From Actinoallomurus soli (GTDB lineage Bacteria > Actinomycetota > Actinomycetes > Streptosporangiales > Streptosporangiaceae): a DNA stretch of 64,000 bases. The stretch spans positions 1-64,000 of the forward strand of contig NZ_JAMXMV010000007.1 in assembly GCF_024055715.1 (NCBI RefSeq), read 5' to 3'. The notes below the pieces were generated by a model, which saw only the letters and a list, made by a program, of their open reading frames with translations, was not told the DNA's origin and made no database searches. Of the stretch, positions 9,564 to 55,188 are shown one piece after another. Within the stretch, counting starts at the first letter, position 1, and the number at the start of each line of letters is the position of its first letter. A program made the translations under genes and the position numbers.

Positions 9564-9641
9564 GAGCGGCGACTGGCAGGAGATCACGCAGCCGGGAGTG
9601 CACCGTGCCGGTAGCACTCAACTGCACGGCCTTGCGGCCGG

Positions 9642-14622: not shown

Positions 14623-14695
14623 GTCTGGAAACTCCGGTCCAATGGAGCACCGGGAGATCCAGGCTTCACCGAGCAGTCTGACAGGGGAGTCCTTC

Positions 14696-16291: not shown

Positions 16292-16360
16292 CGGCACGCC
16301 GCCCCCGGGCGCGCCTGCCCGGGGCCGGGGCGATGAACGAGGCGCGGAGGGTGATGCGCA

Positions 16361-16873: not shown

Positions 16874-16912
16874 GGGCCGCCGCTAGAGATCGAATACATA
16901 CATGGCTGGAGA

Positions 16913-39931: not shown

Positions 39932-40531
39932 CTAGTGGTTGATGGGCACGCCTCTCGCGCGCATGCTCAGCGCGTGCTCGACGAGCGTGATCAGCGTCAT
40001 CTTGGTCGACTCGCGGTTCCGGGCGTCGCAGGTGACGATCGGGACGTGCTGCCCGATCGTCAGCGCCTCGCGCACGTCCTCGATCCCGTGGCTGTACACC
40101 CCGTCGAAGCCGTTGATGCCGACGACGAACGGCAGCCCGGACTCCTCGAAGTAGTCCACCGCCGGGAAGGCGTCGGCCAGCCGGCGGGTGTCGACCAGCA
40201 CGACCGCGCCGATCGCGCCCTTCACCAGGTCGTCCCACATGAACCAGAACCGGTGCTGACCGGGCGTGCCGAACAGGTACAGGATGAGTTCCTGGTCGAG
40301 GCTGACCCGGCCGAAGTCCATGGCCACGGTCGTGGTCGTCTTGTCCGGCGTGGCGGAAAGGTCGTCGACCCCGGTGCTGGCCGATGTCATCACGGCCTCG
40401 GTCGTCAGCGGCATGATCTCTGAGACCGAGCCGACGAAGGTCGTCTTCCCGACGCCGAAGCCACCTCCGACGATGATCTTTACGGAGGTCATGCCGGGCG
40501 AAGCGCCCGGACTAGAGCTTGCGAAGTCCAA
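39932..40531 (-). CDS. Conservon GTP/ATP-binding protein (CvnD-like)
   Basis: A 199-residue small GTPase-like protein with P-loop GGFGVGKTTFVG (residues ~22-33), a switch region with T-T-T-T-V-A-M-D-F-G, and LFGTPGQHRFWFMW equivalent to the DxxG segment. It is the effector of actinomycete conservons (cvn), membrane-associated signalling sets that work with a sensor histidine kinase-like protein and a roadblock protein. The TTG at 40531 overlaps the DUF742 gene by 20 bases, the usual arrangement in this operon. ATG 40492 is the alternative. Confidence 0.9.
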   Translation of the reverse strand: MDFASSSPGASPGMTSVKIIVGGGFGVGKTTFVGSVSEIMPLTTEAVMTSASTGVDDLSATPDKTTTTVAMDFGRVSLDQELILYLFGTPGQHRFWFMWDDLVKGAIGAVVLVDTRRLADAFPAVDYFEESGLPFVVGINGFDGVYSHGIEDVREALTIGQHVPIVTCDARNRESTKMTLITLVEHALSMRARGVPINH

Positions 40532-40964
40532 CGAGAACCCTTTCCAGCAGCTGGAGGTCGGGCTGCCCCTCGGTGAAGGGGGACTGGTGCACGCGTACCA
40601 GGCCTTCGTGTGTCATGTCAGCGATGAGCACACGTGCGACGCCGAGCGGCAGCCTCAGCAGCGCCGACACCTCCGCCACCGAACGCCAGTTCCGGCACAG
40701 ATCGAGGATGGCTTTGAATTCAGGAGTGAGGGTGGTGATGTCCCGGCGGGGATAAGGGGCCGCCGAGATCAACGCCTCGATGGGCAGGTCGTACCTGGGT
40801 TTCGTACGCCCGCCGGTGACGGCGTACGGCCGCACCAGCGAGCTGCTCTGTCCCGTGTCCGAGGGCTGCTGCGGGGGCGGCCCCGGCGGCGGGTTGTGGT
40901 TGGGTCCGGACCCCGGCCCGTGGTACCCGCCGAAGTCCCGGTCTCCGTACCGACCCCCGTCCAC
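40512..40964 (-). CDS. DUF742 protein of the conservon (CvnC-like)
   Basis: A 150-residue protein. A Gly/Pro-rich N-terminus (YGDRDFGGYHGPGSG) leads into the DUF742 winged-helix-like domain: SLVRPYAVTGGRTKP, RDITTLTPEFKAILDLCRN, RSVAEVSALLRLPLGVARVL and the ending LLERVLVGLRKL. It is the third component of the conservon and bridges the roadblock protein and the GTPase. The GTG at 40964 lies 3 bases after the preceding stop. Confidence 0.92.
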   Translation of the reverse strand: MDGGRYGDRDFGGYHGPGSGPNHNPPPGPPPQQPSDTGQSSSLVRPYAVTGGRTKPRYDLPIEALISAAPYPRRDITTLTPEFKAILDLCRNWRSVAEVSALLRLPLGVARVLIADMTHEGLVRVHQSPFTEGQPDLQLLERVLVGLRKL

Positions 40965-40967: not shown

Positions 40968-41369
40968 TTAACCGATCCCTGGTTCCGCGCGCAACGCCGG
41001 AGTGAGCACCCGGCCGACGCGCTCGACGAGCAGTGCCATCTCGTAGGCCACCAATCCCATGTCGCAGTCGGGCGCGGCCAGGACGCCGAGCACCGAGCCG
41101 TCACTGATAGCCATCACGAACAGCAGGCCGCGCTCCATCTCCACCAGGGTCTGGGTGACCGCCCCGCCCTCGAAGATTCGCGCCGCCCCCTGCGTGAGGC
41201 TGGTCAACCCGGAGGCGATCGCGGCGAGCTGGTCGACGCGGTCGGCCGGGAAGCCTTCGGAATACGCCATCGGCAGGCCGTCGGAGGACACCACGACCGC
41301 GTGCGCGACGCGAGGGACGCGCTCGACGAATGTGGTCACCAGCCAACTGAGATCCTGGCGGCTGTTCAC
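40968..41369 (-). CDS. Roadblock/LC7-domain protein of the conservon (CvnB-like)
   Basis: A 133-residue roadblock/LC7 protein (DLSWLVTTFVERVPRVAHAV, SSDGLPMAYSEGFP, LAAIASGLTSLTQGAARIF, ISDGSVLGVLAAPDCDMGLV). In conservons it binds the GTPase and modulates its nucleotide state. The GTG at 41369 overlaps the kinase stop by 4 bases (GTGA). Confidence 0.93.
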   Translation of the reverse strand: MNSRQDLSWLVTTFVERVPRVAHAVVVSSDGLPMAYSEGFPADRVDQLAAIASGLTSLTQGAARIFEGGAVTQTLVEMERGLLFVMAISDGSVLGVLAAPDCDMGLVAYEMALLVERVGRVLTPALRAEPGIG

Positions 41370-44300
41370 TGGTTCTCCCGTTCATCATCTTCGGGCCGGA
41401 TCGCGGCGCGACCCCTGCGTACGCCCTGCTGGAAGCTGGAGAAACGGTTCCGTACCGTTTCGGCCTCCGGCGGCTGGAAGGCCGGCCGGACCGGTGGCTG
41501 CACCGGTTGCTGCATCGACTGCTGAGGCGGTGGCGCCGGCCTCGCCGAGGCGATCGATCCGGGGATCCGGTTGTTGCCCGGCACCCGTTTCGGCAGCCCG
41601 GCCGCGGTCTTCCCACCCACCGACGGGGCGCGCACCGTCTCCGCCGCCCGGAAGCCCTCGTCCGCGGGCGAGCTCCACTCCGACGGAGAAGTCGTCGACT
41701 CAGATCTGGCCATTGATCCTGTCTTGCGGCGTTGGAACCATTCCGACTGCATTGCCTCGAAGATAGGGGAACGTCCTCCGTTCTGGTCTCCCAAACGACC
41801 TTCCTCGCGCATCGAACCGGTCGCCGACGGCCGAGTCGGCTGCCTCGCCGGCGGGAACGGGGGGTTCTGCGGCCTCGACGGACGCGCCGGAGGCGGTCCA
41901 CCGCCCGGAGTTCCCGACCGGCCGGGAGCCGACGGCGCGGCCCCTCGGCCCGGAGGCGAGGTGTTCGCCGGCTTCCGCTTGGGAAGGGGCGAACCCTGCG
42001 GGCCCCGAGGCTGCTCGGACTGACCGTACACCGGCTCGGCGGGCTCGGCGGGCTCGGCCGGACGCCGTTCGGGCTCCCGCCGGCCCCAGGCCGGTTCCGC
42101 CGGTTCCGGCTCGTCCCAGACAGGCTGCGCCGACCTGCGCAGCGGCTCGGCCGGGCTCTGCGGCGGGTCGAGGGGGCCGCGCGGCGGCTCGGTGTCCAGC
42201 GGCGCGGGTTCGAAGGCGGTACGCCCCGTCTCGGTGCGAGCGCGGGCGGGTTCCCACGGCGTGTCGGGAACCGGGGCCGGGGCGATCGGCTCGGCGCTGC
42301 GCGGCAGTTGCCCGCGTACGGCGGGCGCCTCCACCGCGGACGACCTGCGGGGAGCCGTCTCCACCGGCGAGTCGAGACGGCGGGGCGCCGGCGGGTTGCC
42401 GTCCTGGATGGCGTTGGCGGGCAGGATGACGAAGGCGGTCAGGCCGCCCGACAGGGCGGCGCGCAGCTCGACCCGGATGCCGTGGCGCTGGGCCAGCCGG
42501 CCGACGACGAACAGGCCCATGCGGCGGGAGATCGACACGTCGATCGTCGGCGGGTTGGCCAGCTTCCAGTTGGCCTCTTCCAGCTCCTCCGGCGACATGC
42601 CGACGCCGTTGTCGGAGATCTGGAGCATGGCGCCGCCGCCGCTGAGCAGGTGACCCGACACCGCGACCTTGGTGTGCTCGGGCGAGAACGTGGTGGAGTT
42701 CTCCACGAGCTCGGCGACGAGGTGCACGAGGTCGTTGACGACCCGGCCGATCACCGAGACGTCGTCCTGGATCCGCAGGGTGACCCGCTCGTACTGCTCG
42801 ACCTCCGACAGCGACGCGCGGACGATGTCGACCAGCGGCACGGGCTTGTTCCACCGGCGGGTCTGTTCCTGGCCGCCGAGGACGAGGAGGTTCTCTCCGT
42901 TGCGCCGCATACGGGTCGCCAGGTGGTCGAGCTTGAACAGCGACTCCAGCCGCGCGGCGTCCTGCTCGCTCTGTTCGAGATCCTCGATCAGCCGCAGCTG
43001 GCGCTCGATCAGCGACTGGCTGCGGCGGGACAGGTTGACGAACATCGCGTTGACGTTGCCGCGCAGCAGCGCCTCGTTGGACGCCAGGCGCACGGCCTCG
43101 CGGTGGACCTCGTCGAAGGACCGCGCCACCTCACCGATCTCATCGGTGGTGAAGACGTCGATCGGCTCCACGGCGATCGGCTCGTTGCCGGCCTCCGCGT
43201 CGCGCAGGCGGCGGACCAGGTCCGGCAGGCGGTGGCCGGCGACCTCGAGGGCGCCCTCGCGGAGCTTGCGGAGCGGCCGGACGAGGGACTGGGCCATGAC
43301 CAGCGTGACGATGAGGACCAGGATCAGGACGATGGCGATCGCGGCCGAGTTCAGGATCGCCGACCGGAGCGCGTCGGACTGACGATGCTTGCTGCCCGCG
43401 ATGACCTCGTCGGCCAGCTTCCGCTCCACCTGGCGCATCAGGTCGATCTTGGCCGTCGACGTCTTCAGCCAGTCTCCGGCGTCGTCGGTGGTGTCGGGGT
43501 CGAGGTCGAGGTGCTTGGTGCCCTTGCCGCCGAGCCCGAGCGCGATCGCGCGCTGGAGGAGCACCGCCGACTCGTCGACGTCCGGGCCGATGACCGTGTC
43601 GTCGTACATCTGGCTCTGCTGGAACGTCGCGGCCTCGCGGAAGGAGGCCAGCTCGCTCTGTTCCCGGGCCTCGGCGGCGGCGAGGGACGAGACGTCGTTG
43701 ACGGTCAGGGCGCCGTTCAGCGCGGCCGAGTACAACAGCGCCCGCTGCTCGGAGGCCTGCTCCTTCGCGCGGGACACGGCGACGAGCGCACGGACGTCCG
43801 CCGTGAGCGTCTCGTCGGCGGCGCCCTGCGCGATGACGTCGTTGAAGGCCAGCAGGTCGTTGATCGACTCGGAGTACACGATGATCACCGAGGCCGCCGG
43901 CATCTTGGTCCTGGCCGCGTTGTCGCGCAGGTTGGGGATGGCGTCCAGCCGGTTGCGCATCCGCGTCGCGTTGGCGAGGACCTGAGAGCCGTAGGACCCG
44001 TTGAGCTTCGCCGCCAGCCTGCGCACCTGGACGACCGCGGCGTCCGCCTTCGGGTACTGCTCCTGGACCTGAGCGAGCAATGTCGGATTGCGATTGTCCG
44101 CGATGTACGCGGCCGTCAGGTCGCGCTCGCTGCTGAGCGCGTGCACGAGGGCGGTGATCTGACTGCCGAGCTCGGCCAGGTTCTCCACCCGGTTGTACGT
44201 CTGGGCACGGGAGACGGAGGTGGCGATCCGGAGTCCACCGAAGGCCACGGCGACCACCGTGGGGATCAGGATCAGGGCGATCAGCCGTCGCCGCACACGC

Positions 44301-44416
44301 CAGTTGCGCAGCCGGAACCTACTGCCGGGCCCACGCGCACCAGCAGACGGGGCGCCGTCCTCCTCCGCCGCCGGAGGCGGCGGAGTGCGGTCACCAGGCT
44401 CGTCGTTCGGTTGCAT
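41366..44416 (-). CDS. Conservon sensor histidine kinase with nitrate/nitrite-sensing domain (CvnA-like)
   Basis: A 1016-residue membrane protein. One transmembrane helix at residues ~45-61 and a second around IAIVLILVLIVTLVMAQSL enclose an extracellular NIT sensor domain (RVENLAELGSQITALVHALS, AAYIADNRNP). A HAMP linker (RPLRKLREGALEVAGHRLPD) and a histidine-kinase ATPase domain (LVAELVENSTTFSP as N box, QISDNGVGMSPEEL, SRRMGLFVVGRLAQRHGI) follow. A long Pro/Arg/Glu-rich tail with MQSEWFQRR near the end is characteristic. The phosphoacceptor region lacks an obvious classical H box, as in other conservons. First gene of the four-gene set. Confidence 0.93.
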   Translation of the reverse strand: MQPNDEPGDRTPPPPAAEEDGAPSAGARGPGSRFRLRNWRVRRRLIALILIPTVVAVAFGGLRIATSVSRAQTYNRVENLAELGSQITALVHALSSERDLTAAYIADNRNPTLLAQVQEQYPKADAAVVQVRRLAAKLNGSYGSQVLANATRMRNRLDAIPNLRDNAARTKMPAASVIIVYSESINDLLAFNDVIAQGAADETLTADVRALVAVSRAKEQASEQRALLYSAALNGALTVNDVSSLAAAEAREQSELASFREAATFQQSQMYDDTVIGPDVDESAVLLQRAIALGLGGKGTKHLDLDPDTTDDAGDWLKTSTAKIDLMRQVERKLADEVIAGSKHRQSDALRSAILNSAAIAIVLILVLIVTLVMAQSLVRPLRKLREGALEVAGHRLPDLVRRLRDAEAGNEPIAVEPIDVFTTDEIGEVARSFDEVHREAVRLASNEALLRGNVNAMFVNLSRRSQSLIERQLRLIEDLEQSEQDAARLESLFKLDHLATRMRRNGENLLVLGGQEQTRRWNKPVPLVDIVRASLSEVEQYERVTLRIQDDVSVIGRVVNDLVHLVAELVENSTTFSPEHTKVAVSGHLLSGGGAMLQISDNGVGMSPEELEEANWKLANPPTIDVSISRRMGLFVVGRLAQRHGIRVELRAALSGGLTAFVILPANAIQDGNPPAPRRLDSPVETAPRRSSAVEAPAVRGQLPRSAEPIAPAPVPDTPWEPARARTETGRTAFEPAPLDTEPPRGPLDPPQSPAEPLRRSAQPVWDEPEPAEPAWGRREPERRPAEPAEPAEPVYGQSEQPRGPQGSPLPKRKPANTSPPGRGAAPSAPGRSGTPGGGPPPARPSRPQNPPFPPARQPTRPSATGSMREEGRLGDQNGGRSPIFEAMQSEWFQRRKTGSMARSESTTSPSEWSSPADEGFRAAETVRAPSVGGKTAAGLPKRVPGNNRIPGSIASARPAPPPQQSMQQPVQPPVRPAFQPPEAETVRNRFSSFQQGVRRGRAAIRPEDDERENQ

Positions 44417-44581
44417 CCGCACTTGGCGTTTACACCCTCTCACGGTAAGGATCCGCGCTGGTAAGAAGCTGGGGGAAAAGGGAGGCGCCGACAAGGGGTA
44501 CATCGCGTCTGCCATCCAGCGTCCGACATTGCAGCACACTGCGGGGACCGCTCGCAAAGAGATCGAAATACTGCGCCTAGT

Positions 44582-44598
44582 GTTACTACCGGAGTAAC
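44582..44598 (-). promoter_or_regulatory. Palindrome upstream of the conservon
   Basis: GTTACT (44582-44587) and AGTAAC (44593-44598) form a perfect inverted repeat with a 5-base spacer, 166 bases before the kinase ATG in an otherwise AT-richer stretch. Confidence 0.4.
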
Positions 44599-44735
44599 CT
44601 CACCGCAGCTCACAGTGACGAACAACTCAGCGATGTGCCATAACGCTTAGTGAGTTGCTATTCATCCTCTGTGATATGCGACTCTCCCCCACCCACTGCG
44701 ATCGCACTCGACAATGGCGGACGGAAATTCGCCCC

Positions 44736-44785
44736 GGCCGCGAGACGGCGAAGTCGGCCAGGCCGCGAGACGGCGAAGTCGGCCG
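44736..44785. repeat. 25-base tandem duplication
   Basis: A 25-base unit beginning GGCCGCGAGACGG is repeated head to tail with one mismatch, followed by a 9-base partial third copy. It lies within the conservon/ABC intergenic region. Confidence 0.8.
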
Positions 44786-44918
44786 GGCCGCGACCTCGTC
44801 CGGAGGGCACGGCCGGACCCCACGACCCCCCCGGCCCGCCGCCCCGAGTCGCGCACGGAGCGCCTACGGTGCGTCAACCTCACAAACAGCCCAGAACATG
44901 ACAATCATGCGTCAATCT

Positions 44919-44940
44919 CCCTTGACGGATGGTCAAAGGG
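44919..44940 (+). promoter_or_regulatory. Inverted repeat upstream of the ABC/ThDP operon
   Basis: CCCTTGAC (44919-44926) and GTCAAAGGG (44932-44940) pair with a single bulge around 5 bases. It lies about 155 bases before the binding-protein gene and is a candidate operator. No regulator gene lies in the operon. Confidence 0.4.
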
Positions 44941-45094
44941 ACCTCTTCTGCCGCCTGCGCACCACTGGGCGTGTGCTGTAACCTCCCCCGTGATCGGGAC
45001 CAATCGGGCGTCGTCGCCTGACATCGGCTCGTCCTCGGTCCCCGCCCCCCATGCCCCCGCAATCTTCCGCTTCTTCCCCTCCTAAAGGAGCACC

Positions 45095-46087
45095 ATGAGA
45101 CGGTTCGGGTCTCGCCCCGCCTTCCTCACGAGTCTTCTTCTCACCGCATCCCTCGCCGTGGGCTGCGGTGGCTCAAAGTCGAGCAACGACGACGCCGGCA
45201 GCGGCCTTGAGAAGAAGACCATCACCGTCGCCTCGCTTCCCCTCGTCGACGCGGCCGGTCTGCATATCGCCGTCGAGCACAAGTTTTTCGAGGCCGAGGG
45301 CCTCAAGGTCAACATCAAGCCTGTCGCGCAAAGCATCCTCGCCCTGCCCGCGCTCAAGACCGGACAGGTCGACGTCATCGCCGGCGGCAACTACGTGACG
45401 TTCCTCCAGGCGAATGACACGGGCCAGTTGAAGCTGCGCATCCTCGCCGACGGCGCCGCCCAGGCGCCTCGCTTCATGCAGTTGCTCGTCGCGAAGGACT
45501 CGCCCATCAAGCAGCCGAAGGACCTTGAGGGCAAGACCGTCGCGGTCAATATTCCGAACAACATTCAGTCCCTGACCTTCAACGAGGTCCTCAAGGCGAA
45601 CAACGTCGATCCGACCAAGATCAAGTATGTCAAGGTCGCCTTCCCGGAGATGGGAGCCGCGCTCCAGAAGCACCAGGTCGACGCGGTCCACACCGGCGAG
45701 CCCTTCGGCACCGACATCCAGCGCAAGCAGGGCGCGCGGATGGTCCTCGACGGCGGCGGCGCCCCGGTCACCGACCTCCCCGTGAGCGGCTACCTCAGCA
45801 CGCAGGACTTCGTCAGCAAGTACCCGAAGACCGCCGCCGCCTTCCAGCGGGCCATCGAGAAGGCGCAGCAGCTGGCGTCCAGCGACCGCAAGCAGGTCGA
45901 GCAGGTCCTGCCCGGCTACACCAAGGGCATCGACGCCCAGGCCGCCTCGGTCCTCAGCCTGCCCGGGTACCCGACCTCGATGAACCCGACCCGGCTGCAG
46001 CGGCTGATCGACCTGATGATCGCGAACAACATGCTCAAGGCCAAGCCGGACCCGAAGACGCTGATCTACAGCCCCTCGAGCAAGTGA
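45095..46087 (+). CDS. NitT/TauT-type ABC substrate-binding lipoprotein (NMT1/THI5-like)
   Basis: A 330-residue lipoprotein. The signal ends in the lipobox LAVGCGG (Cys ~24). The mature part is a type II binding protein of the SsuA/TauA/THI5 group: TITVASLPLVDAAGLHIAVE, KFFEAEGLKVNIKPVA, GQVDVIAGGNYVTFLQA, KDLEGKTVAVNIPNN, VDAVHTGEPFGTDI. Such proteins bind sulfonates, pyrimidine precursors, phthalates or other aromatic acids. The downstream enzymes suggest an aromatic or branched 2-oxo acid precursor here. The ATG follows AAAGGAG. First gene of a seven-gene operon. Confidence 0.92.
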   Translation: MRRFGSRPAFLTSLLLTASLAVGCGGSKSSNDDAGSGLEKKTITVASLPLVDAAGLHIAVEHKFFEAEGLKVNIKPVAQSILALPALKTGQVDVIAGGNYVTFLQANDTGQLKLRILADGAAQAPRFMQLLVAKDSPIKQPKDLEGKTVAVNIPNNIQSLTFNEVLKANNVDPTKIKYVKVAFPEMGAALQKHQVDAVHTGEPFGTDIQRKQGARMVLDGGGAPVTDLPVSGYLSTQDFVSKYPKTAAAFQRAIEKAQQLASSDRKQVEQVLPGYTKGIDAQAASVLSLPGYPTSMNPTRLQRLIDLMIANNMLKAKPDPKTLIYSPSSK

Positions 46088-46097
46088 CCAAGGCAGT

Positions 46098-46907
46098 ATG
46101 ACAACGCACAACCCGCGATCCCGGCATCTCTCGCGCACCGGCAGGTGGCTGCGGGGGATCGCCGGGCTCGCGATTCTCGTCGCGGCGAGCGAGGTGCTCG
46201 GGCGGGCGGGCATCGTCGACAAGACCTACCTCCCCCCGGCCTCGACCATCCTCTCCCGGGCGATCGGCCTCGCGGCCGACCCCGACTTCATGGCGAACGT
46301 TCTCGCCACGATCAAGGCATGGGCCCTCGGGCTCGCGATCGCGGTCGGCGCGGGCGTTCTCCTCGGCCTGCTCCTCGGCGGTCTCCCCGTGGTCGGCACC
46401 GCCGTCCGCGGGGTCCTGGAGTTCCTCCGGCCGATCCCGTCCGTGGCCCTGATCCCCCTCGTCAGCCTCCTGCTGGGGACGGGCCTCGCCACGGAGACCA
46501 CCCTCATCGTCTACGCCGCCATCTGGCCGGTGCTCTTCAACACCATCTACGGCCTCCAGGACGTCGACCCGGTCGCCAAGGAGACTCTGCGCACGTTCGG
46601 CTTCGGCAAGGTCGCCATCATGTGGCGGGTCTCCCTGCCGGCGGCGGCGCCGTTCATCGCCACCGGAGTGCGGCTGGCGGCCGCGGTCGCGCTGATCCTC
46701 GCGGTGGGCACCGAGATCCTGTCGGGCTTCGGGTCGGGCCTCGGCATCTTCATCGGCCAGGCCGAACAGGGCCTCGACGGTGCCAGGGACGTCCTGGCGG
46801 GCACCGTCTGGGCCGGAGCGCTCGGCCTCGTCATCAACACCGTGCTGGTGCAGTGCGAACGCCGCCTGTTCCGCTGGCACGCCGCGCAGTCGGGAGGACG
46901 CTCATGA
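46098..46907 (+). CDS. NitT/TauT-type ABC permease 1
   Basis: A 269-residue permease with about six hydrophobic segments and the coupling-helix region LFNTIYGLQDVDPVAKETLRTFG, followed by VSLPAAAPFIATGVRLA, the EAA-loop equivalent. YLPPASTILSRAIGLAAD is the typical N-terminal region of SsuC/TauC proteins. The start codon is 10 bases after the binding-protein stop, and its stop overlaps the next permease start (ATGA). Confidence 0.93.
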   Translation: MTTHNPRSRHLSRTGRWLRGIAGLAILVAASEVLGRAGIVDKTYLPPASTILSRAIGLAADPDFMANVLATIKAWALGLAIAVGAGVLLGLLLGGLPVVGTAVRGVLEFLRPIPSVALIPLVSLLLGTGLATETTLIVYAAIWPVLFNTIYGLQDVDPVAKETLRTFGFGKVAIMWRVSLPAAAPFIATGVRLAAAVALILAVGTEILSGFGSGLGIFIGQAEQGLDGARDVLAGTVWAGALGLVINTVLVQCERRLFRWHAAQSGGRS

Positions 46908-47746
46908 GCGCCGCCGTGGCCGGCCGCCGCCCGGGCCGTTACGGCGTGGGCCTGCTGACCGGCATCCTGCACCGCTGGATCGTCCTCGCCGTCGCGGTCG
47001 CCTGCTGGGAGGTCGGCACCCGGATCGCGCGAAGCCCGTCCTTCCCTCCGCCGTCGACGATCGTGTCGAAGATGTACCACCTGTGGTTCGCGGGTCCGGC
47101 GTCCCACCTGTTCCTGACCTCGGAGGCCACCGGCAACCTCCTGCCCAGCCTGGGCCGGATGGCCGTGGGGCTGGCCGCCTCGATCGTCGCGGGCGTGGGT
47201 CTCGGCCTGCTGCTCGGCCGCTCGGAGCGGATGTTCGCCTATCTCGACCCGCTGTTCCAGTTCGCCCGGGTGATCCCGCCACCGACCCTGGCACCGGTCT
47301 TCATCGTGCTGTTCAAGCTGGGTTCCCAGATGCAGATCGCGTCGATCATCTTCAGCGCGATCTGGCCGATCCTCCTCAACACGGCGGACGGCGCGCGGTC
47401 GGTGGACCAGCTGCAGATGGCCACCGCGCGGGTGTTCCGGCTGTCGTCCACCGATCGCCTGTTCAAGATCATCCTTCCGTCCACGATGCCCAAGATCTTC
47501 GCCGGTCTGCGGCTGAGCCTGTCCCTGGCCCTCATCCTGATGGTCTTCTCGGAACTGCTTCCCGGTGCCACGGACGGGATCGGGTTCCTGATGAGCGACG
47601 CTCAGAGCCGGTCCGACCTGCCGACCCTGTGGGCGGGCATCGTGCTGCTGGGAATCCTCGGATACCTCCTCAACACCCTGCTGCTGATGGCGGAGCGCCG
47701 CGCCCTGGCCGGGCACCGCGCCGCCCGCCGGGTCGACACGACATGA
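46904..47746 (+). CDS. NitT/TauT-type ABC permease 2
   Basis: A 280-residue permease similar in family to permease 1 (FPPPSTIVSKMYHLW; PILLNTADGARSVDQLQMATARVF; ILPSTMPKIFAGLRLSLSLAL). Most NitT/TauT systems use one permease as a homodimer. Two different genes suggest a heterodimeric pore. It overlaps permease 1 by 4 bases and the following decarboxylase by 4 bases. Confidence 0.93.
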   Translation: MSAAVAGRRPGRYGVGLLTGILHRWIVLAVAVACWEVGTRIARSPSFPPPSTIVSKMYHLWFAGPASHLFLTSEATGNLLPSLGRMAVGLAASIVAGVGLGLLLGRSERMFAYLDPLFQFARVIPPPTLAPVFIVLFKLGSQMQIASIIFSAIWPILLNTADGARSVDQLQMATARVFRLSSTDRLFKIILPSTMPKIFAGLRLSLSLALILMVFSELLPGATDGIGFLMSDAQSRSDLPTLWAGIVLLGILGYLLNTLLLMAERRALAGHRAARRVDTT

Positions 47747-49371
47747 GAGGCATGATGACCGACGGGCTCACCGTACGGGACGCCGTCTTCGGCTTCCTCC
47801 GCGACGTCGGGCTGACCACCTTCTTCGGCAACCCCGGCTCGACCGAGCTGCGGATGTTCTCGGGATGGCCGGCCGACTTCCGCTACGTGCTCGGCCTGCA
47901 GGAGTCGGTGGCGGTCGCGGTCGCGGCCGGCCACACGCTCGGCACCGGGCGCGCCTCTCTGGTCAGCCTGCACTCCGCCGGCGGAGTGGGGCACTCCCTC
48001 GGCGCGGTGTTCAACGCCTACCGTGACCGCGTGCCGGTCCTCATCGTCGCGGGCCAGCAGTCACGCGCCATGCTGCCGACGCGACCCTTCCTGTCGGCGG
48101 ACGAACCGGCGCTCTTCCCCCGGCCGTACGTGAAGTGGAGCCGGCAGCCCGAGCGCGCCGAGGACGTCCCCGCGGCGTTCGCCGAGGCGTACCACGTCGC
48201 GATGACCCCGCCGCGCGGGCCGGTGTTCCTGTCGGTGCCCGAGGACGACTGGGACCGCCCGGCCCGGCCGGTCGAGCCGCGCGAGGTCCGCGCCGGGTTC
48301 GTCGGCGAGCCGGCGGCGCTGCGTGAGGTGGCCGAAGCCCTGAACGCCGCCCGCGAGCCGACGATCATCGTCGGCGCCGGCGTCGACGACGACGGCGCGT
48401 CGCCGCTCGTCACCGAACTGGCCGAGCGCACCGGCGCGGCCGTCTGGATGGCCCCCTTGTCCGGCCGGTCCGGTTTCCCGGAGGACCACCGGCTCTTCCG
48501 CGGCTTCCTGCCGCCGGTCCGCGACCAGCTCGCCCGGGCCCTCGAACCGTACGACGTGATCGTGTCGGTCGGCGCGCCGATCTTCACGTACCACGTGCAC
48601 ACCGAAGGCCCGTACCTCCCGGCCGGCGCGCGGCTGTTCCACCTCGACTGCGACCCCGCGCAGACGGCCTGGGCCCCGGTGGGCACCAGTGTGCTCACCA
48701 CGATCCGGGCCGGGGTCGCCGCACTGCTGGAACTCGTCGAGAAGGCCGACCGGCCGGCGCCCCCGCCCCTCGTCCGGCCGCCCGTGCCGCCGGTCACGGA
48801 CCCGATCCAGCCCGCGCTGGCGATCGAGACGCTGCGCGCGCTGCTCCCCGACGACGCGGTCGTCGTCGAGGAGGTCCCCAGCCACCGGGACGACCTGCAC
48901 GCCCGCCTGCCGATCACCCGGCCGGGCGGGTTCCTCACCACGGGCAGCGGCGCGCTCGGCTGGGGGCTTCCCCTCGCCGTCGGCCGTGCGCTGGCGGGTA
49001 CGGGACAGCGCGTCGTCTGCGTCGTGGGCGACGGGTCCAGCATGTACTCGATCCAGGCGCTGTGGACGGCCGCGCGTCACCGGGCGCCGGTCACGTTCGT
49101 GGTGCTGAACAACCAGGCGTACGAGGCCGTCAAGGCGCTCGGCCGCCGGATCGACATACCGGACGTGCCCGGCACCGACCTGGGCGGCATCGACTTCGTC
49201 TCGGTCGCCGCCGGGCTCGGGTGCCCCGGCCGTCGCGTCGAGCGTGCCGACGAGCTGACCGACGCGCTGACGCAGGCCCTCGGCCACGACGGCCCGTTCC
49301 TCGTGGACGTGCGGGTGGCCGCCGGCACCTCCTCCGCCTACTCCTCCCCCAACGACTTTCGGACCAGGTGA
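47743..49371 (+). CDS. Benzoylformate decarboxylase-like ThDP enzyme
   Basis: A 542-residue thiamine-diphosphate enzyme. Active-site residues known from Pseudomonas putida benzoylformate decarboxylase are all present: Ser33 (FFGNPGSTEL), cofactor Glu54 (GLQES), His77 (SLHSAGG) and His284 (FTYHVH). They correspond to Ser26, Glu47, His70 and His281, the first three with a constant offset of seven. The ThDP/Mg motif is VVGDGSSMYSIQALWTAARH, ending with NN (VVLNNQAYEAV). It should decarboxylate an aryl 2-oxo acid to an aldehyde, although specificity may differ. ATG 47743 overlaps the permease stop; ATGs 47752 and 47755 are alternatives. Confidence 0.9.
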   Translation: MRGMMTDGLTVRDAVFGFLRDVGLTTFFGNPGSTELRMFSGWPADFRYVLGLQESVAVAVAAGHTLGTGRASLVSLHSAGGVGHSLGAVFNAYRDRVPVLIVAGQQSRAMLPTRPFLSADEPALFPRPYVKWSRQPERAEDVPAAFAEAYHVAMTPPRGPVFLSVPEDDWDRPARPVEPREVRAGFVGEPAALREVAEALNAAREPTIIVGAGVDDDGASPLVTELAERTGAAVWMAPLSGRSGFPEDHRLFRGFLPPVRDQLARALEPYDVIVSVGAPIFTYHVHTEGPYLPAGARLFHLDCDPAQTAWAPVGTSVLTTIRAGVAALLELVEKADRPAPPPLVRPPVPPVTDPIQPALAIETLRALLPDDAVVVEEVPSHRDDLHARLPITRPGGFLTTGSGALGWGLPLAVGRALAGTGQRVVCVVGDGSSMYSIQALWTAARHRAPVTFVVLNNQAYEAVKALGRRIDIPDVPGTDLGGIDFVSVAAGLGCPGRRVERADELTDALTQALGHDGPFLVDVRVAAGTSSAYSSPNDFRTR

Positions 49372-49377
49372 AAGCCC

Positions 49378-50142
49378 GTGCTCCAGATCGAGAAGCTCGG
49401 TCACTACTACGCCGATCACACGGCCCTGGAAGATGTGAACCTCGAGGTCGCCGAGGGCGAGCTGGTGAGCATCGTCGGGCCGTCCGGCTGCGGAAAGTCG
49501 ACGCTGCTGCGCTGCATCGCCGGGCTGATCCGGCCCTCGCAGGGCCGGATCACGCTGAACGGCAGAGAGATCACCGACGTGCCCGACAACCTGGCCGTCG
49601 TGTTCCAGGACTACAGCCGTTCGCTGCTGCCGTGGCTGACCGTGCGCGACAACGTCGCGCTCCCCCTGCGCCGGCGCGGCAGGTCCAAGTCCGAGCGCCA
49701 GGCGGCCGCGCTGGGCGCCCTCCAGGCCGTCGGCCTGGCGGACGCCGCGCACAAGTACCCCTGGCAGCTGTCGGGCGGCATGCAGCAGCGCGTGTCGATC
49801 GCCCGCGCCCTCGCCTACCAGCCGGCCCTCCTCCTGATGGACGAGCCGTTCGGCTCGGTCGACGCGCAGACCCGCGAGGACCTGGAGGACCTCGTCCTGC
49901 GCGTGCGCAAGGACGGCATGACGATCCTGCTCGTCACGCACGACATCGACGAGAGCGTCTACGTCGGCGACCGGGTCATCGTCCTGGACCGCGCGCCGGG
50001 ACGGGTCGCCGCCGATCTCGCCGTCGGACTGCCGTCGGCGCGCGACCAGATCAGCACGCGGGAACTCCCGGAGTTCGTGCACATGCGGGCCGAGGTCGGC
50101 CGTCTCGTCCGCGGTCAGGCGCCGCCCGGAGCCGTCCTTTGA
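49378..50142 (+). CDS. NitT/TauT-type ABC ATP-binding protein
   Basis: A 254-residue ATPase with Walker A GPSGCGKST, Q-loop AVVFQDYSRSLLPWLTV, signature QLSGGMQQRVSIARAL, Walker B LLLMDEPFGSVD and the switch His LLVTHDIDE. It powers the transporter encoded earlier, although the decarboxylase gene is interposed between permeases and ATPase. That interposition is a strong sign that transport and decarboxylation are one functional unit. The GTG at 49378 is 6 bases after the decarboxylase stop. Confidence 0.94.
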   Translation: MLQIEKLGHYYADHTALEDVNLEVAEGELVSIVGPSGCGKSTLLRCIAGLIRPSQGRITLNGREITDVPDNLAVVFQDYSRSLLPWLTVRDNVALPLRRRGRSKSERQAAALGALQAVGLADAAHKYPWQLSGGMQQRVSIARALAYQPALLLMDEPFGSVDAQTREDLEDLVLRVRKDGMTILLVTHDIDESVYVGDRVIVLDRAPGRVAADLAVGLPSARDQISTRELPEFVHMRAEVGRLVRGQAPPGAVL

Positions 50143-50202
50143 CGCGGACCCCCGCAGGACTCCGATCCGGCCCTCGCCCGCCATCCCGATGGAGAGACAC
50201 AC

Positions 50203-51891
50203 GTGACCGAAGACTTCCGACCTCGTACGACGGCCGAGCACCTGCTGTGGCTGCTCCACCGGCACGGCGTCGACCACCTCTTCCTCAACCCCGGCACCGA
50301 CTCGGCCCCGCTGCAGGAGGCGGCGGTCACGCTCGCCGAGGCGGGCGTCGGCATGCCGCAGATCATCCCCTGCACGTTCGAGTCGGTCGCCCTCGCCGCG
50401 GCGCACGGATACTGGCAGGTGACCGGGCGCCCGCAGGCGGTGTTCGTCCACGTGGACGTCGGCACGCAGAACCTCGGCGCGATGGTGCACAACGCGATGC
50501 GGGACCGGGCCGGGGTCGTCGTCATCGCCGGGAAGACCCCGTACGGGGAGGACCCGGGCTCTCCCGGAGGCCGTTCGCACACGATCCACTGGCAGCAGGA
50601 CGTGCCCGACCAGGCGGGCGTCGTCCGGGCGTACGCGAAGTGGTCGCTGGAGGTGACCCGCCCGGACGTCCTGCCCCGCGCCATCGGCCGCGCCGTGCAG
50701 GTCGCCCGCAGCGGGCGGCCCGGTCCCGCGTACCTCATGGTGTCCCGCGACGTGCTGATGGACCCGCCCGCCACCGAACCCGGACGGACCGGCCGCTACG
50801 CCGTGCCGGGCCCGCCCGCCGCGGACGCCGGGACCGTACGGCGGATCGCGGACCTGCTCACCACGGCCGAGCGGCCCCTGCTGATCACCTCGCGGACCGG
50901 CCGCCGCCCCGGCGGCTTCGAGGCGGTGACCCGGCTGGCCGAACGCGCCGGAGTCCGCGTCATCGACACGCCGGAGAGCGGATGCCTCAACATCGCCACC
51001 TCCCACCCGATGCACGTCCGCTCCGCCGGGGCCGCCCGCCGCGCCGTCGGCGAGGCGGACCTGATCATCGTCGCCGACTGTGACGTCCCGTGGATTCCCA
51101 AGTTCGTCCGGCCCGCCGCGGACGCCACGGTCGTCCTGATCGACATGGACCCGGTGAAGGACGACATGCCGCTGTGGACCTTCCCGGTCGACCTGGCCGT
51201 CGCCGCGCCCGGGGCGGTGGTCCTCGACCAGGTGACGGCCGCGCTGGGCGACCTCGACCCGGCGGCGAAGTGGCGCGGCGCCGGCCCGGCCGAGGAGCCC
51301 GCCGCCTCCGCCGGCGGGGATGACGCGATCGCCGCCCGGGAGGTCTTCGAGGCCCTGAACGCCGTGCTCCGCGCGGACGACATCGTCGTCGAGGAGGCGG
51401 TCACCAACGCGGGAACGCTCCACGAGACCCTGGAGCGCAGCCTGCCCGGCACCATGGCCGGAACGGGCAGCCCCGGGCTGGGCTGGGGTCTCGGCGGAGC
51501 CGTCGGCGTCAAACTGGCCGCTCCCGGACAGCGCGTGATCACGGTCGTCGGGGACGGCAGCTTCATGTTCGGCGTGCCCACCGCGGCCCTGTGCCTCGCC
51601 GCGGAGGCCGGCGCCCCGATCCTCGCCGTCGTGCTCAACAACGACGGCTACAAGGCCAGCAGGATGCCGGTCTTCGAGCTCTTCCCCGAGGGACGCTCCG
51701 CCGCGCGGGGCGACGCGGTCGGCACGCGGTTCCAGAGCCCGCCCGACTTCGCCGCGGTGGCCCGCGCGTGCCACGCCCACGGGGAGAGCGTCACGGACCG
51801 CGCGGATCTGGTGCCGGCCCTGCAGCGCGCCCTCAAGGCGCTGGAGGCCGGGCGCTCGGCGGTCGTGGACGTGCGCCTGGCGCCGAACTGA
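50203..51891 (+). CDS. Second thiamine-diphosphate enzyme (acetolactate synthase-like fold)
   Basis: A 562-residue ThDP enzyme clearly different from the decarboxylase two genes upstream. The cofactor Glu is in PCTFESVALAAAHGYW, the N-terminal loop is FLNPGTDSAPL, and the Mg/ThDP motif is VVGDGSFMFGVPTAAL ending VVLNNDGYKAS. The PYR and PP domains and the middle domain are all full length. It belongs to the broad acetolactate synthase-like group whose members catalyse carboligation, decarboxylation or oxalyl/hydroxyacyl-CoA-type cleavage. The reaction is unknown. The GTG at 50203 has GGAGAG upstream. Confidence 0.87.
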   Translation: MTEDFRPRTTAEHLLWLLHRHGVDHLFLNPGTDSAPLQEAAVTLAEAGVGMPQIIPCTFESVALAAAHGYWQVTGRPQAVFVHVDVGTQNLGAMVHNAMRDRAGVVVIAGKTPYGEDPGSPGGRSHTIHWQQDVPDQAGVVRAYAKWSLEVTRPDVLPRAIGRAVQVARSGRPGPAYLMVSRDVLMDPPATEPGRTGRYAVPGPPAADAGTVRRIADLLTTAERPLLITSRTGRRPGGFEAVTRLAERAGVRVIDTPESGCLNIATSHPMHVRSAGAARRAVGEADLIIVADCDVPWIPKFVRPAADATVVLIDMDPVKDDMPLWTFPVDLAVAAPGAVVLDQVTAALGDLDPAAKWRGAGPAEEPAASAGGDDAIAAREVFEALNAVLRADDIVVEEAVTNAGTLHETLERSLPGTMAGTGSPGLGWGLGGAVGVKLAAPGQRVITVVGDGSFMFGVPTAALCLAAEAGAPILAVVLNNDGYKASRMPVFELFPEGRSAARGDAVGTRFQSPPDFAAVARACHAHGESVTDRADLVPALQRALKALEAGRSAVVDVRLAPN

Positions 51892-51975
51892 CCCGGTGTG
51901 GTGAGCCGGGGCCGGCCCGGCCGGTCCCGGCCCGCGCTTTCCGGTGACACCTCGCGGCGTAGAAGGAGGATCCTC

Positions 51976-53250
51976 GTGGACGTGCTCGTCGTAGGCGCGG
52001 GCATCGCCGGCCTGACCACGGCGCTGGCGCTGGAGAAGGCCGGCGTGAACGCCCGCGTCGTCGAGGCGGCACCGGCGCTGCGGCCGCTCGGTGTGGGCAT
52101 CAACCTGCAGCCGCACGCGGTACGGGAGCTGATCGAACTCGGGCTGGGCGGGGAACTGGCGGCCACCGGGATCGAGACCCGCGAGGTGATCACGATGGAC
52201 CGGTTCGGCAACCGGATCGTCGTCCATCCGCGCGGCCGGCGCGCCGGGTACGACTGGCCGCAGTACTCCATTCACCGCGGGGACCTGCAGATGCTGCTGG
52301 CCGACGCGGTGCGGGAGCGCCTCGGCGACGACGCCGTACGGACCGGGCTGGCGTTCGAGGAGTTCGAGGAGGACGCCGACGGCGTCGTGGCGCGGCTGCG
52401 CGACCGGGCGAGCGGGGAGGTCGTGACGCTGCGCGCCGACCTGCTCGTGGGCGCGGACGGCATCCACTCCGAGGTCCGGCGGCTGCTGCACCCGGGCGAG
52501 GGCGCGCCGCTGTGGAACGGCGTCCGCATGTGGCGCGGTGTCACCGAGGTCGACGAGTTCCTGACCGGCGACACCATGCTGGTGATGGGCTCGCACAACG
52601 TCGGCCGCATGGTCCTCTATCCGATCTCTCGGAAGGCGGCCGAGCGCGGTCGCTGCCTGGTGAACTGGGTCGCGGAGGTCCGCGTCTCCGCCGACCCGCA
52701 CGGCGAGGGCGTCTCGGCGAACTGGACCCGCGAGGGCCGGCTGGAGGACGTGCTCCCCCACTACGCCGACTGGCGCCACGACGGCTTCGACGTTCCCACG
52801 CTGCTGGCGGAATCGCGGTTCATCCTCGACTACCCGATGGTCGACCGTGACCCGCTGTCCTCCTGGGGCCGGGGACGGGTGACACTGGCCGGGGACGCCG
52901 CCCACCCGATGTACCCGGTGGGCGCCAACGGCGGCTCACAGGCGATCCTGGACGCGCGGGTCCTCGCCCGGGAGCTCGCCTCCTCGGCGACGGACCCGAT
53001 CGCCGCTCTGCGGTCGTACGAGGAGGCCCGCCTCCCAGAGGCGAACGCGGTCGCGATGGCCTGCCGGAACATGCCGCTGGACAAGATGCTCGACCTGGTC
53101 GCCGAGCGTGCGCCCGAGGGGTTCGCCCGGATCGAGGACATCCTCGACGCCGACGAGGTCGCCAGTGTGCGGGGGATCTGGAGGCAGACGACCGACCTGG
53201 ACGCCGAGGCCCTGAACAAGCGGGAGTCCTGGGACCCGGTCGCCGACTGA
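51976..53250 (+). CDS. FAD-dependent aromatic monooxygenase (salicylate hydroxylase-like)
   Basis: A 424-residue group A flavin monooxygenase: GxGxxG in VVGAGIAGLTTALAL, the DG motif in LVGADGIHSEVRRLL, and the GD motif in VTLAGDAAHPMYPVGANGG. SIHRGDLQMLLADAV is typical of the salicylate/3- or 6-hydroxybenzoate/6-hydroxynicotinate hydroxylases. It would hydroxylate an aromatic ring, using NAD(P)H. The GTG at 51976 has AAGGAGGA at ideal spacing. Last gene of the ABC/ThDP operon. Confidence 0.9.
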   Translation: MDVLVVGAGIAGLTTALALEKAGVNARVVEAAPALRPLGVGINLQPHAVRELIELGLGGELAATGIETREVITMDRFGNRIVVHPRGRRAGYDWPQYSIHRGDLQMLLADAVRERLGDDAVRTGLAFEEFEEDADGVVARLRDRASGEVVTLRADLLVGADGIHSEVRRLLHPGEGAPLWNGVRMWRGVTEVDEFLTGDTMLVMGSHNVGRMVLYPISRKAAERGRCLVNWVAEVRVSADPHGEGVSANWTREGRLEDVLPHYADWRHDGFDVPTLLAESRFILDYPMVDRDPLSSWGRGRVTLAGDAAHPMYPVGANGGSQAILDARVLARELASSATDPIAALRSYEEARLPEANAVAMACRNMPLDKMLDLVAERAPEGFARIEDILDADEVASVRGIWRQTTDLDAEALNKRESWDPVAD

Positions 53251-53433: not shown

Positions 53434-55188
53434 TTATTTGGCGTCCGCGTAGCACTCGACCGCGACCGCCTCCATCGGGAAGCGCACCGGGGTGTCGCCG
53501 AACACCAGCCGGCGCGCCTCCGCCGCGGAGTCCCGGATCGCGGTGATCACCGCCTCGGCGAGCTCCCGCGGCGCGTGCACGATCACCTCGTCGTGCTGGA
53601 AGAAGACCAGCCGGGGAGCGGTGCCGCCGGAGCCCAGCGCGGTCAGCCTGCGGCGCAGCGCCGCCAAGAGGACGAGCGCCCAGTCGGCGGCGCTGGCCTG
53701 GACGACGAAGTTGCGCGTGAACCGGCCGCGGCTGCGCACCGCCGACCCGCCACCGTCCTGGACGGCGAGATCGCGCCACTCCGGCGACGGCGGCGGGCAG
53801 GTACGGCCCAGCCGCGACCGCACCACGCGCCCCGCCTCCCCGGCGCGGGCAGCCGCCTCCACGTAGTCGTACGCGGCGGGGAACCGGCGGCGCATCACCG
53901 CCAGCAGTTGCGGCGCCTCGCCGCTCGTCCCGCCGTACATGGCGGACAGCAGGGCGATCTTGGCCTTGTCGCGGGCGCCGCCGAAGACGCCCGCGAGCGC
54001 GGAGTAGAGGTCGTTCTCACCCGCCGCGGCGGCGAACGCCTGGTCCCCGGCGAGCGCGGCCAGCACCCGTGGCTCCAGCTGGGCGGCGTCGGCGACCACG
54101 AGGCGCCATCCGGGATCGGCGACGACCGCGCGCCGCAGCACCTTCGGGATCTGCAGTGCTCCCCCGCCGTTCGTCGCCCAGCGCCCGGAGACCACGCCGC
54201 CGACGACGTACTCCGGGCGGAACCGGCCGTCGCGCACCCAGGTGTCGGCCCACGACCAGCCGTGCGCGACGTACAGCCGGGCGAGCTCCTTGTACTCCAG
54301 CAGCAGCCGGGCGGCCGGATGCTCGACCTGCCGCAGCACGTGCGACCGGGTCGACGAGATCTGCACGCCCGCCTGCGCGAACGCCTTGACGATCTGCGAC
54401 GGCGAGTCCGGGTTGATCCGGCGGCCCAGCGCCTCGCCGATCAGGTCGGCCAGCCGCTGCAACTCGCGCGGCCGCAGGCCCGGCGCCGGGCGCGGGCCCA
54501 TGAGGCCGGTGAGCAGCGCGTCGTGGACGTCGGCGCGCCAGGGGAGGCCGTCGTGGCCCATCTCCGCGGCGGCCAGCGCGCCCGCCGACTCGGCGGCGGC
54601 GAGCATCCGCAACCCGGTCTCGGCGACCCGTCGCTGCTGCTCGGCGTGGACGGCGACGACGGCGTCGATGTCGTCCGACGGGCCCTCGTCGAACAGCGTC
54701 GGCAGGTCACCGGCCGCGACGGGGTCCTCCGGGACGGGGTCTCCCCGCAGGCGGGCCAGGGCCGCCGCGACGGACCGCGGCTCGCCGAAGCGGCCCGCGT
54801 GCCCGAGCAGGAGCGTCTCGGTCAGCTCGAGGTCGTGGCAGCGCGCGACGCGGACCCCCGCCCTGAGCAGGCGGGGATAGAGACCGGCGGTCGAGGGCCA
54901 CACCCAGCGGATGCCGGCGGGCGGGGACGCGGCGTCGCCTCGCGTCGGACCGGGTCGCTCCGGGGCGTCGCCGCCGGGCCGCGCCGGGACGTCGCCTCCG
55001 CGCCGGGACGCGACGTCGTCCCCGGCGGCGTCGCCTCGCGCTCCACCGGGGCGGGACGCCATGGCCTCGCGCCGGGCGATGGCGGCGACGAGGTCGGCGA
55101 CCGGCTCGGCGGGTCCGGCAGGAGTGCCGTCGTCCGCGACCGGCCGCAGCACCCCGCCCTCCCCCACCGCGCCGACTGCGATCCGCAT
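53434..55188 (-). CDS. PolA-like bifunctional 3'-5' exonuclease/DNA polymerase
   Basis: A 584-residue family A polymerase, shorter than PolI and without a 5' nuclease. The polymerase palm motif A is VVADAAQLEPRVLAAL, the finger helix is RDKAKIALLSAMYGG, and motif C is FFQHDEVIVHAPREL. The N-terminal part corresponds to the exonuclease fold but carries an Arg/Gly/Pro-rich insertion (GGDVPARPGGDAPERPGP). The exonuclease acidic residues are not convincing, so editing activity is doubtful. Actinomycetes have this extra PolA homologue, with a possible repair role. ATG 55188 gives MRIAVGAVGEG. Confidence 0.9.
   Translation of the reverse strand: MRIAVGAVGEGGVLRPVADDGTPAGPAEPVADLVAAIARREAMASRPGGARGDAAGDDVASRRGGDVPARPGGDAPERPGPTRGDAASPPAGIRWVWPSTAGLYPRLLRAGVRVARCHDLELTETLLLGHAGRFGEPRSVAAALARLRGDPVPEDPVAAGDLPTLFDEGPSDDIDAVVAVHAEQQRRVAETGLRMLAAAESAGALAAAEMGHDGLPWRADVHDALLTGLMGPRPAPGLRPRELQRLADLIGEALGRRINPDSPSQIVKAFAQAGVQISSTRSHVLRQVEHPAARLLLEYKELARLYVAHGWSWADTWVRDGRFRPEYVVGGVVSGRWATNGGGALQIPKVLRRAVVADPGWRLVVADAAQLEPRVLAALAGDQAFAAAAGENDLYSALAGVFGGARDKAKIALLSAMYGGTSGEAPQLLAVMRRRFPAAYDYVEAAARAGEAGRVVRSRLGRTCPPPSPEWRDLAVQDGGGSAVRSRGRFTRNFVVQASAADWALVLLAALRRRLTALGSGGTAPRLVFFQHDEVIVHAPRELAEAVITAIRDSAAEARRLVFGDTPVRFPMEAVAVECYADAK

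Follow-up and report, generated by a model that had tools for sequence, protein, structure and literature searches.

The window analysed here is a stretch of 64,000 nucleotides from Actinoallomurus soli (contig NZ_JAMXMV010000007.1, positions 1 to 64,000), whose genome (9.42 Mb; G000 in the comparisons below) has A. purpureus KCTC 19541 (L054), which also carries the cassette, as its closest named relative among those fetched. The window carries a seven-gene operon at 45095-53250, entirely on the forward strand, in which two gene pairs overlap by 4 nt and the remaining gaps are 6-84 nt (Table 1). The operon encodes an ATP-binding cassette (ABC) importer with two permeases, a benzoylformate decarboxylase (BFD)-family enzyme, a second thiamine diphosphate (ThDP) enzyme of the PRK08327 family (TPP2), and a PhzS-type FAD monooxygenase. 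The original prediction had named these same-strand genes, including the second ThDP enzyme and the FAD hydroxylase; coordinates and families were as it called them, and both ThDP enzymes and the FAD enzyme pass their NCBIfam cut-offs. The most informative neighbour lies outside the stretch it covered. This is a conservon (sensor kinase, roadblock, DUF742, and GTPase genes in the order cvnA-B-C-D), which stands head to head with the operon. Comparisons with related genomes indicate that the NIT sensor domain of CvnA, the promoter region, the importer, and the decarboxylases behave as one exchangeable block on a fixed chassis.

Genes were called with a codon-score caller; start codons, and hence head-to-head distances, are approximate. 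The distance from cvnA to the operon was approximately 800 nt (862 nt by the caller and 798 nt from the ATG at 45095), and this divergent promoter region contains a 24-nt direct repeat at 44736 and 44761 (44736-44784). The FAD gene most likely starts at the GTG at 51976, which follows AAGGAGG, rather than at 51898.

Table 1. Conservon, importer operon, exchanged block, and slot boundary in the window
Feature	Position	Strand	Basis
CvnD-type GTPase	39932..40492	-	PF03029, 116.5 bits
CvnC (DUF742)	40512..40964	-	PF05331, 117.8 bits
CvnB roadblock protein	40968..41369	-	PF03259, 84.2 bits
CvnA sensor kinase, start uncertain (open frame to 44557)	41366..44296	-	NIT, HATPase_c (PF02518), HAMP
NIT sensor domain of CvnA	43403..44152	-	PF08376
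Block exchanged relative to G091 (NIT sensor domain, intergenic region, importer, both ThDP genes)	43330..51974		blastn
NMT1-type substrate-binding lipoprotein	45095..46087	+	PF09084, 89.5 bits, above Pfam cut-off; SsuA_fam, 109.6 bits, below its cut-off of 163.5
Permease 1	46098..46907	+	PF00528 (BPD_transp_1), above Pfam cut-off
Permease 2	46904..47746	+	PF00528 (BPD_transp_1), above Pfam cut-off
BFD-family ThDP 2-oxo-acid decarboxylase	47743..49371	+	NF005485 (benzoylformate decarboxylase), 687.8 bits, cut-off 493; top PDB relative 4q9d, E 1.1e-132
NitT/TauT-type ATPase	49378..50142	+	PF00005; taurine/nitrate ATPase models match, below cut-off
Second ThDP enzyme, PRK08327 family (TPP2)	50203..51891	+	NF006203/PRK08327, 563.9 bits, cut-off 456
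PhzS-type FAD monooxygenase	51976..53250	+	NF005720/PRK07538, 551.4 bits, cut-off 400; top PDB relatives 2rgj, 3c96, E 1.1e-112 (phmmer)
DNA polymerase A-like gene, boundary of slot	53434..55188	-	PF00476; present in 8/8 genus genomes

The exchange was delimited by comparison with G091, the nearest of the seven other genus genomes in this slot (polymerase gene 94% identical). Blastn identity was 92.7% between 39900 and 43330, a point within cvnA shortly beyond the NIT domain, and an alignment at 86.2% resumed at 51974, the start of the FAD gene; within the intervening block, only permease 2 (66%) and the ATPase (77%) aligned. The two CvnA proteins are 97% identical in the kinase region and 89% in the C-terminal tail, whereas their NIT domains share 33%. 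The two genomes stay alike in the kinase half, CvnB-D, the FAD gene, which lies outside the exchanged block, and the polymerase gene, and differ in the NIT domain and importer block. The kinase region was 88-97% identical across the six genus genomes compared. G115 is more distant but carries the same importer type, and its NIT domain is 78% identical to that of the window. In another genus, G085 (importer type II) shares 93 and 94% of the kinase region with G037 and G131 (type I), but only 35 and 32% of the NIT domain. G131 and G135 hold both importer types, and their NIT domains resemble those of genomes with the type of the nearer importer.

Distances between binding proteins followed those between NIT domains (r 0.77) in 23 full-length head-to-head pairs. 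The partial correlation given the kinase was 0.72, with a permutation p of 0.0005, the minimum obtainable from 2000 shuffles. The C-terminal tail, the mean distance of which is about equal to that of NIT, gave a partial correlation of 0.07 (p 0.18), and the HAMP region, which adjoins NIT, gave 0.34 (p 0.0005). A larger set of 26 pairs, which includes three where permease 1 adjoins the kinase and the binding protein was taken from elsewhere in that importer, gave r 0.75 and a partial correlation of 0.68. The swaps stand independently of the p values of this distance test.

The head-to-head arrangement recurs in relatives, which were retrieved by the binding protein alone; matches at the class level were counted per place, with several in some genomes. 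At the family level, 18 of 24 binding-protein places (23/150 genomes) were head to head with a NIT kinase, with no gene between and 356-886 nt by the caller. Three of the other six have the conservon elsewhere in the slot (G135, G136, and G012), and none was present in the stretch read in G114, G026, and G041; G114 and G026 are fragmented assemblies. G135 was scored as having no kinase ('no HK') by the script, and its conservon sits past the second importer (L164). At the class level, 23 of 37 places (27/394 genomes) were head to head, two of them in another family (G488 and G379). The two sets overlap, and their union comprised 33 head-to-head places among 53, all with starts less than 900 nt apart; a conservon is possible beyond the stretch read in L217 and L226. 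The pairs occupy two recurring neighbourhoods, one beside the polymerase gene and the other beside a gene encoding an LRSKGRLS[DE]ADIDAT product, presumably Ffh. The window genome has four NIT kinases and seven NMT1 matches. A tree of 38 CvnA proteins placed the other three NIT kinases of this genome far away, and its importer-linked members required three label changes against a shuffled mean of 10.5; therefore, much of the association was inherited and not gained many times. Elsewhere in the window genome (L232, G000:C55:96000-114000, at 6478-17320), another NIT conservon is oriented divergently to a YdcS/Pot-like polyamine-type ABC importer, with one gene between them. An aminobutyraldehyde dehydrogenase gene (over cut-off) comes after this importer; the listed importer models were below cut-off except for the polyamine ATPase subfamily. 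Therefore, the pairing of conservons and importers may be wider.

The simplest functional reading is that one ligand is recognised by both the sensor and the binding protein, with the conservon in control of the operon. However, several observations weigh against it. NIT identity within importer type I was only 36-55% between genera, and the G091 domain was 40-41% identical to those of the two remaining type II genomes in the genus, whose decarboxylase is a different one. The pairs in the distance test share ancestry, which weakens the p value, and were partly chosen by enzyme. All four genomes of genus g85, which we take to be Streptomyces, have importers with no conservon in the stretch read. 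Furthermore, since the NIT domain and importer physically adjoin, their joint replacement may be due to linkage alone: recombination in the conserved kinase half would replace everything up to the next conserved block, and NIT may sense nitrate or nitrite. The short distance between starts at all 33 head-to-head places, the contiguity of the swap between G000 and G091, and the description of NIT domains as nitrate/nitrite sensors (PMC13343842, in the part of the text available) agree with this explanation. However, the pair has been retained in 33 of 53 places and two families, and a sensor for a single common ion would have no need of heads that share 27-40% identity and vary with the importer type on a kinase region of 74-97%. 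The NIT type also follows the nearer importer in G131 and G135, although linkage predicts the same. We consider linkage alone to be a serious possibility, but a somewhat improbable one. We tentatively propose, at slightly under even odds, that the NIT-type conservons in this group act as nutrient receptors whose heads can be exchanged: the extracellular NIT domain would bind the same aromatic acid as the adjacent binding protein, and the whole block would be swapped in evolution onto a fixed kinase-GTPase chassis.

The gene content of the slot differs between genomes of the genus. The polymerase-like gene with an adjoining slot was found in all eight, and the seven genes occurred in the window order in two; in one more, the second ThDP gene was displaced beyond the polymerase gene. 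One or more of the seven were missing from the readable sequence of the remaining five. Using SBP for the binding protein, P1 and P2 for the permeases, and ATP for the ATPase, the window slot reads SBP-P1-P2-BFD-ATP-TPP2-FAD. G513 has this order and a second TPP2 copy past the polymerase gene, while G115 has TPP2 solely past that gene. G052 has SBP-P1-P2-BFD-ATP; G135 combines a pair of importers with TPP2, FAD, and a ThDP enzyme of a third type; G512 has the type II importer, the third ThDP type, and FAD; and G091 has the type II importer, an amidohydrolase, ATP, and FAD. The contig of G514 stops within the operon, and P2-TPP2-ATP-FAD was present up to its end. G514 (L058) and G513 (L055) were each counted once. 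All eight genomes have an importer ATPase together with one or more decarboxylase-type enzymes, and 7/8 have the FAD gene.

Some details of these slots are of note. The PRK08327-family copies of L055, at 8239-9921 and 13108-14793, flank the polymerase gene. The third ThDP type is encoded on the opposite strand, with permease genes on one side and binding-protein genes on the other (L035 17015-18667 and L189 6741-8393), and the L035 member scored 334 bits with the BFD model, below the cut-off of 493. The G091 (L145) amidohydrolase, called LigW2-like, matched 5-carboxyvanillate decarboxylase (4inf, E 3e-133); on account of this enzyme, the ligand in G091 would be expected to shift to a carboxylated benzoate. 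In L071, L073, and L075 (actinobacterial metagenome-assembled genomes), a PRK08327-family gene is beside or near an amidohydrolase of the same LigW2-like (L145) cluster, for which the L145 member was compared with PDB. On the conserved flank of the slot, an FAD-linked oxidase (PF02913, PF01565; window 60725-62293) presumably shares its oxidase superfamily with the enzyme of R. jostii; its cluster also occurs in slots without BFD.

The conservation of all seven genes as one neighbourhood, which the original prediction had offered as a check, thus failed, and in view of the slot contents the seven genes were rejected as a single conserved set. The modules that recur are importer with BFD and importer with FAD. 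The order SBP-P1-P2-BFD-ATP without TPP2 or FAD was found in G067, G037, G120, and a plasmid of Streptomyces sp. NBC_01483, and G131 (L157) has SBP-P1-P2-BFD followed by a complete second importer module with FAD. The position of BFD between permease and ATPase genes, to which the prediction had drawn attention, is not random: among loci with a BFD of at least 63% identity, from several genera and the Streptomyces plasmid, permease 2 was upstream in 9/9 and ATPase downstream in 8/9, the exception being L157, where the second importer module comes next. FAD genes with their own importer, with or without a methyltransferase gene, occur in G085, G048, G058, G044, G095, G123, and others. BFD and the second ThDP enzyme were each found with the same importer clade in the absence of the other.

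The importer accompanies only part of the BFD family. Thirty BFD loci, from 52 places in the 394 class genomes, were read with 1.5-kb flanks; an importer flanked all three at identities of at least 72% and none of the 27 at 54% or less. A sharp identity threshold for importer linkage nevertheless failed because importer operons with more distant BFD-family genes, placed after the ATPase gene, were found in G443 (37%, L244; one of the 22 places outside the thirty) and G008 (39%, L256). In a tree of 19 importers, selected partly through their enzymes, the nine operons with BFD or TPP2 formed one clade (100/100 support). That enzyme-biased sample suggested a ThDP enzyme beside all importers of this clade, a view that was rejected; retrieval by the binding protein alone gave a ThDP enzyme in 9 of 12 close places (at least 53% identity), seven with BFD and two with TPP2 without a close BFD. 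Among 12 places at 46% identity or less, two had adjoining TPP2-family, two FAD, and five methyltransferase genes, and three had none of these. L216 (53-residue BFD match at 8365-8523) and L219 (truncated importer at 5587-8251) appear to be decaying, with conservon genes still called. In L158, L161, L163, L247, and L251, an importer is accompanied by an O-methyltransferase-family and a PhzS-type gene, resembling the PhzM/PhzS pair. Phenazine degradation, which this pairing in relatives may bring to mind, is not favoured; the window operon has no methyltransferase gene. Isatinate was likewise considered as a substrate and set aside, although no search was aimed at genes that would support it.

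The window BFD retains all four catalytic residues, as originally predicted; S33, E54, H77, and H284 align with Ser26, Glu47, His70, and His281, which we take to be Pseudomonas numbering. One four-residue stretch reads PSHR in six and PSNR in one of seven aligned module BFDs, and PSSR, PSAR, or PGSR in four proteobacterial BFDs. The PRK08327 enzyme may be a C-C lyase or carboligase acting on an aldehyde or acyl-CoA and not a second decarboxylase; its top phmmer match was a 2-hydroxyacyl-CoA lyase (9qz5, 6.9e-26), level with BFD (4q9d, 7.8e-26). However, 4-hydroxybenzoylformate decarboxylases (6qsi and 7orx) were the best Foldseek matches of its AlphaFold model, which had a predicted local distance difference test (pLDDT) score of 78.7. 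Furthermore, its homologues adjoin aldehyde dehydrogenase genes in Comamonas pBHB and are close to such a gene in Sagittula, and the enzyme stands beside the same importer clade without a close BFD in L056 and L035. We regard the lyase reading as unlikely. We similarly doubt that the FAD monooxygenase represents a pathway of its own that was joined to the operon, with an aryl carboxylate unconnected to the ThDP products as its substrate. The FAD-only importer modules of other genera and the position of the gene outside the block exchanged with G091 are in line with such an origin, whereas its occurrence beside BFD, PRK08327, third-type ThDP, or LigW2-like enzymes in 7/8 genus genomes suits a shared later step.

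The importer is of the NitT/TauT type by its NMT1-like binding protein, BPD_transp_1 permeases, and ABC_tran ATPase. All four of its proteins were below the listed cut-offs of taurine, nitrate, and sulfonate models (for the ATPase, among the best 25 matches listed), and an importer for a thiamine precursor or sulfonate was rejected as first choice since no such model was over cut-off. An importer for a non-aromatic or nitrogen- or sulfur-containing ligand (an aliphatic sulfonate, taurine, or a pyrimidine precursor), with enzymes that adjoin for other reasons, is improbable. Sulfonate, taurine, nitrate, and pyrimidine binders are among the nearest named models and structures for the binding protein, but none of those models reaches its cut-off. 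Several genera have BFD inside the importer operon, and in relatives the importer occurs together with the BFD family, aldehyde dehydrogenase, and pca genes.

These relatives are G008 and G443. In G008 (L256 500-14500), SBP-SBP-P1-P2-ATP-BFD-aldehyde dehydrogenase is divergent from a PcaR/PcaU-type regulator gene followed by pcaG and pcaH, all three over cut-off. In G443 (L244 5420-14499), aldehyde dehydrogenase-SBP-P1-P2-ATP-BFD lies beside pcaI-type and thiolase genes. The aldehyde dehydrogenase label is at the family level in both, and neither has a conservon in the stretch read. The window operon, unlike that of G008, has no regulator gene of its own. Since the importer, BFD family, and aldehyde dehydrogenase of G008 and G443 adjoin genes of the beta-ketoadipate pathway, the window operon likely serves to take up and decarboxylate an aryl 2-oxo acid. 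Characterised relatives, these two neighbourhoods, and the literature on R. jostii RHA1 and Pseudomonas LLC-1 all point to this class of acids. The BFD of R. jostii RHA1 converts 4-hydroxy- and 4-hydroxy-3-methoxybenzoylformate into aldehydes, according to the accessible part of PMC9811514.

We propose that the binding protein captures a plant- or lignin-derived aryl-C2 2-oxo acid, with hydroxylated benzoylformates (4-hydroxy- or 4-hydroxy-3-methoxybenzoylformate, for example) as candidates, and that the ABC importer brings it into the cell. BFD, the PRK08327 enzyme, or both would decarboxylate the acid to an aryl aldehyde, with the two enzymes serving related acids or acting as alternatives. 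An aldehyde dehydrogenase encoded away from the operon would produce the aryl acid, and the FAD enzyme may hydroxylate the ring, perhaps with the loss of CO2. Ring cleavage would come last; the window genome encodes protocatechuate 3,4-dioxygenase subunits (pcaHG, over cut-off). The CvnA NIT domain would sense the same acid or a relative and control the divergent operon via the CvnB-D GTPase complex.

Several points argue against this reading. The G008 BFD piece (326.5 bits) and G443 BFD (474.8 bits) are both under the cut-off of 493. The PRK08327 enzyme is equally close in sequence to 2-hydroxyacyl-CoA lyase and BFD (phmmer), and the third ThDP type (L035b) falls in the other importer clade. 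Three of the 12 close binding-protein places are without a ThDP enzyme: G001 (the 53-residue match), G098 (the truncated importer), and G026 (none). The structure model of the binding protein had a pLDDT of 36 with an unreadable pocket and was not used. Moreover, no aldehyde dehydrogenase is linked to the window operon; neither this enzyme nor mandelate dehydrogenase or racemase was found in the operon or in the other family-searched genes at 35.2-64 kb of the window (every called gene except an ATPase-like one at 37172-37927). The absence of mandelate dehydrogenase and aldehyde dehydrogenase agrees with the earlier view that this is not a classical mandelate pathway. The compact aromatic 2-oxo acid route proposed with it survives as a predicted uptake-and-decarboxylation operon, but not as one conserved route of seven genes. 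Taken together, we assign a probability of roughly 0.58 to an exchangeable catabolic cassette that is mounted on a conservon and handles an aryl 2-oxo acid.

For lignin and aromatic catabolism, the present results add an ABC-importer route, presumably for aryl 2-oxo acids, in which the type of decarboxylase is interchangeable. The block exchange also suggests hints at the ligands of conservon receptors, which are little understood. A 2026 paper states, in the portion available, that NIT-bearing CvnA proteins likely sense ligands beyond nitrate/nitrite and that this 'remains to be tested' (PMC13343842). A sensor head that travels with one importer narrows the candidate ligands to a few, and the natural pairs of matched and swapped heads lend themselves to such tests.

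PhzS belongs to phenazine modification. The window FAD enzyme is in the same monooxygenase family (PDB 2rgj, 3c96; phmmer); however, its gene is linked to an importer and decarboxylases, unlike the PhzS setting. The 4-hydroxybenzoylformate pathway of R. jostii RHA1 (ro02984 cluster), for which Wei et al. 2019 is reportedly the paper cited, offers a further comparison. According to the accessible text, it is likewise actinobacterial and of the BFD family, and acts on aryl-C2 lignin fragments, but its cluster differs in having flavin oxidase and vanillin dehydrogenase genes, and a transporter is not mentioned there (PMC9811514, PMC10167727). BFD loci L098 and L100 (genus g85) show a BFD-GlcD pairing like that of RHA1, with the GlcD model below cut-off. 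The bzf cluster of Pseudomonas sp. LLC-1, as described in the available part of PMC7760541, shares with the window a BFD, a dedicated importer, and the absence of mandelate dehydrogenase, and the 2-oxo acid itself is used as the substrate. Unlike the window, it has a major facilitator superfamily (MFS) transporter, a porin, a LysR regulator, and a linked aldehyde dehydrogenase, and it is without the ABC importer, second ThDP enzyme, FAD hydroxylase, and conservon (PMC7760541). The statement in the original prediction that no such system had been described therefore holds for the ABC-importer version in the papers searched, but not for BFD with a non-ABC importer (bzf) or lignin aryl-C2 BFDs, both of which are published. 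Neither an importer-BFD operon of the window type nor a conservon-importer pairing was found in the searchable literature, which leaves out most subscription papers. The NIT-type conservons cvn1-6 of S. coelicolor have a CvnA with NIT, HAMP, and HATPase domains together with roadblock, DUF742, and GTPase proteins, as in the window; no linked importer is mentioned in the available text of the two sources, and the word 'transporter' has 0 occurrences in PMC13343842, whereas the sensor head in the window is exchanged with an importer operon (PMC8510531, PMC13343842). The parts of the window system are of known kinds, and their exchangeable arrangement is what is new.

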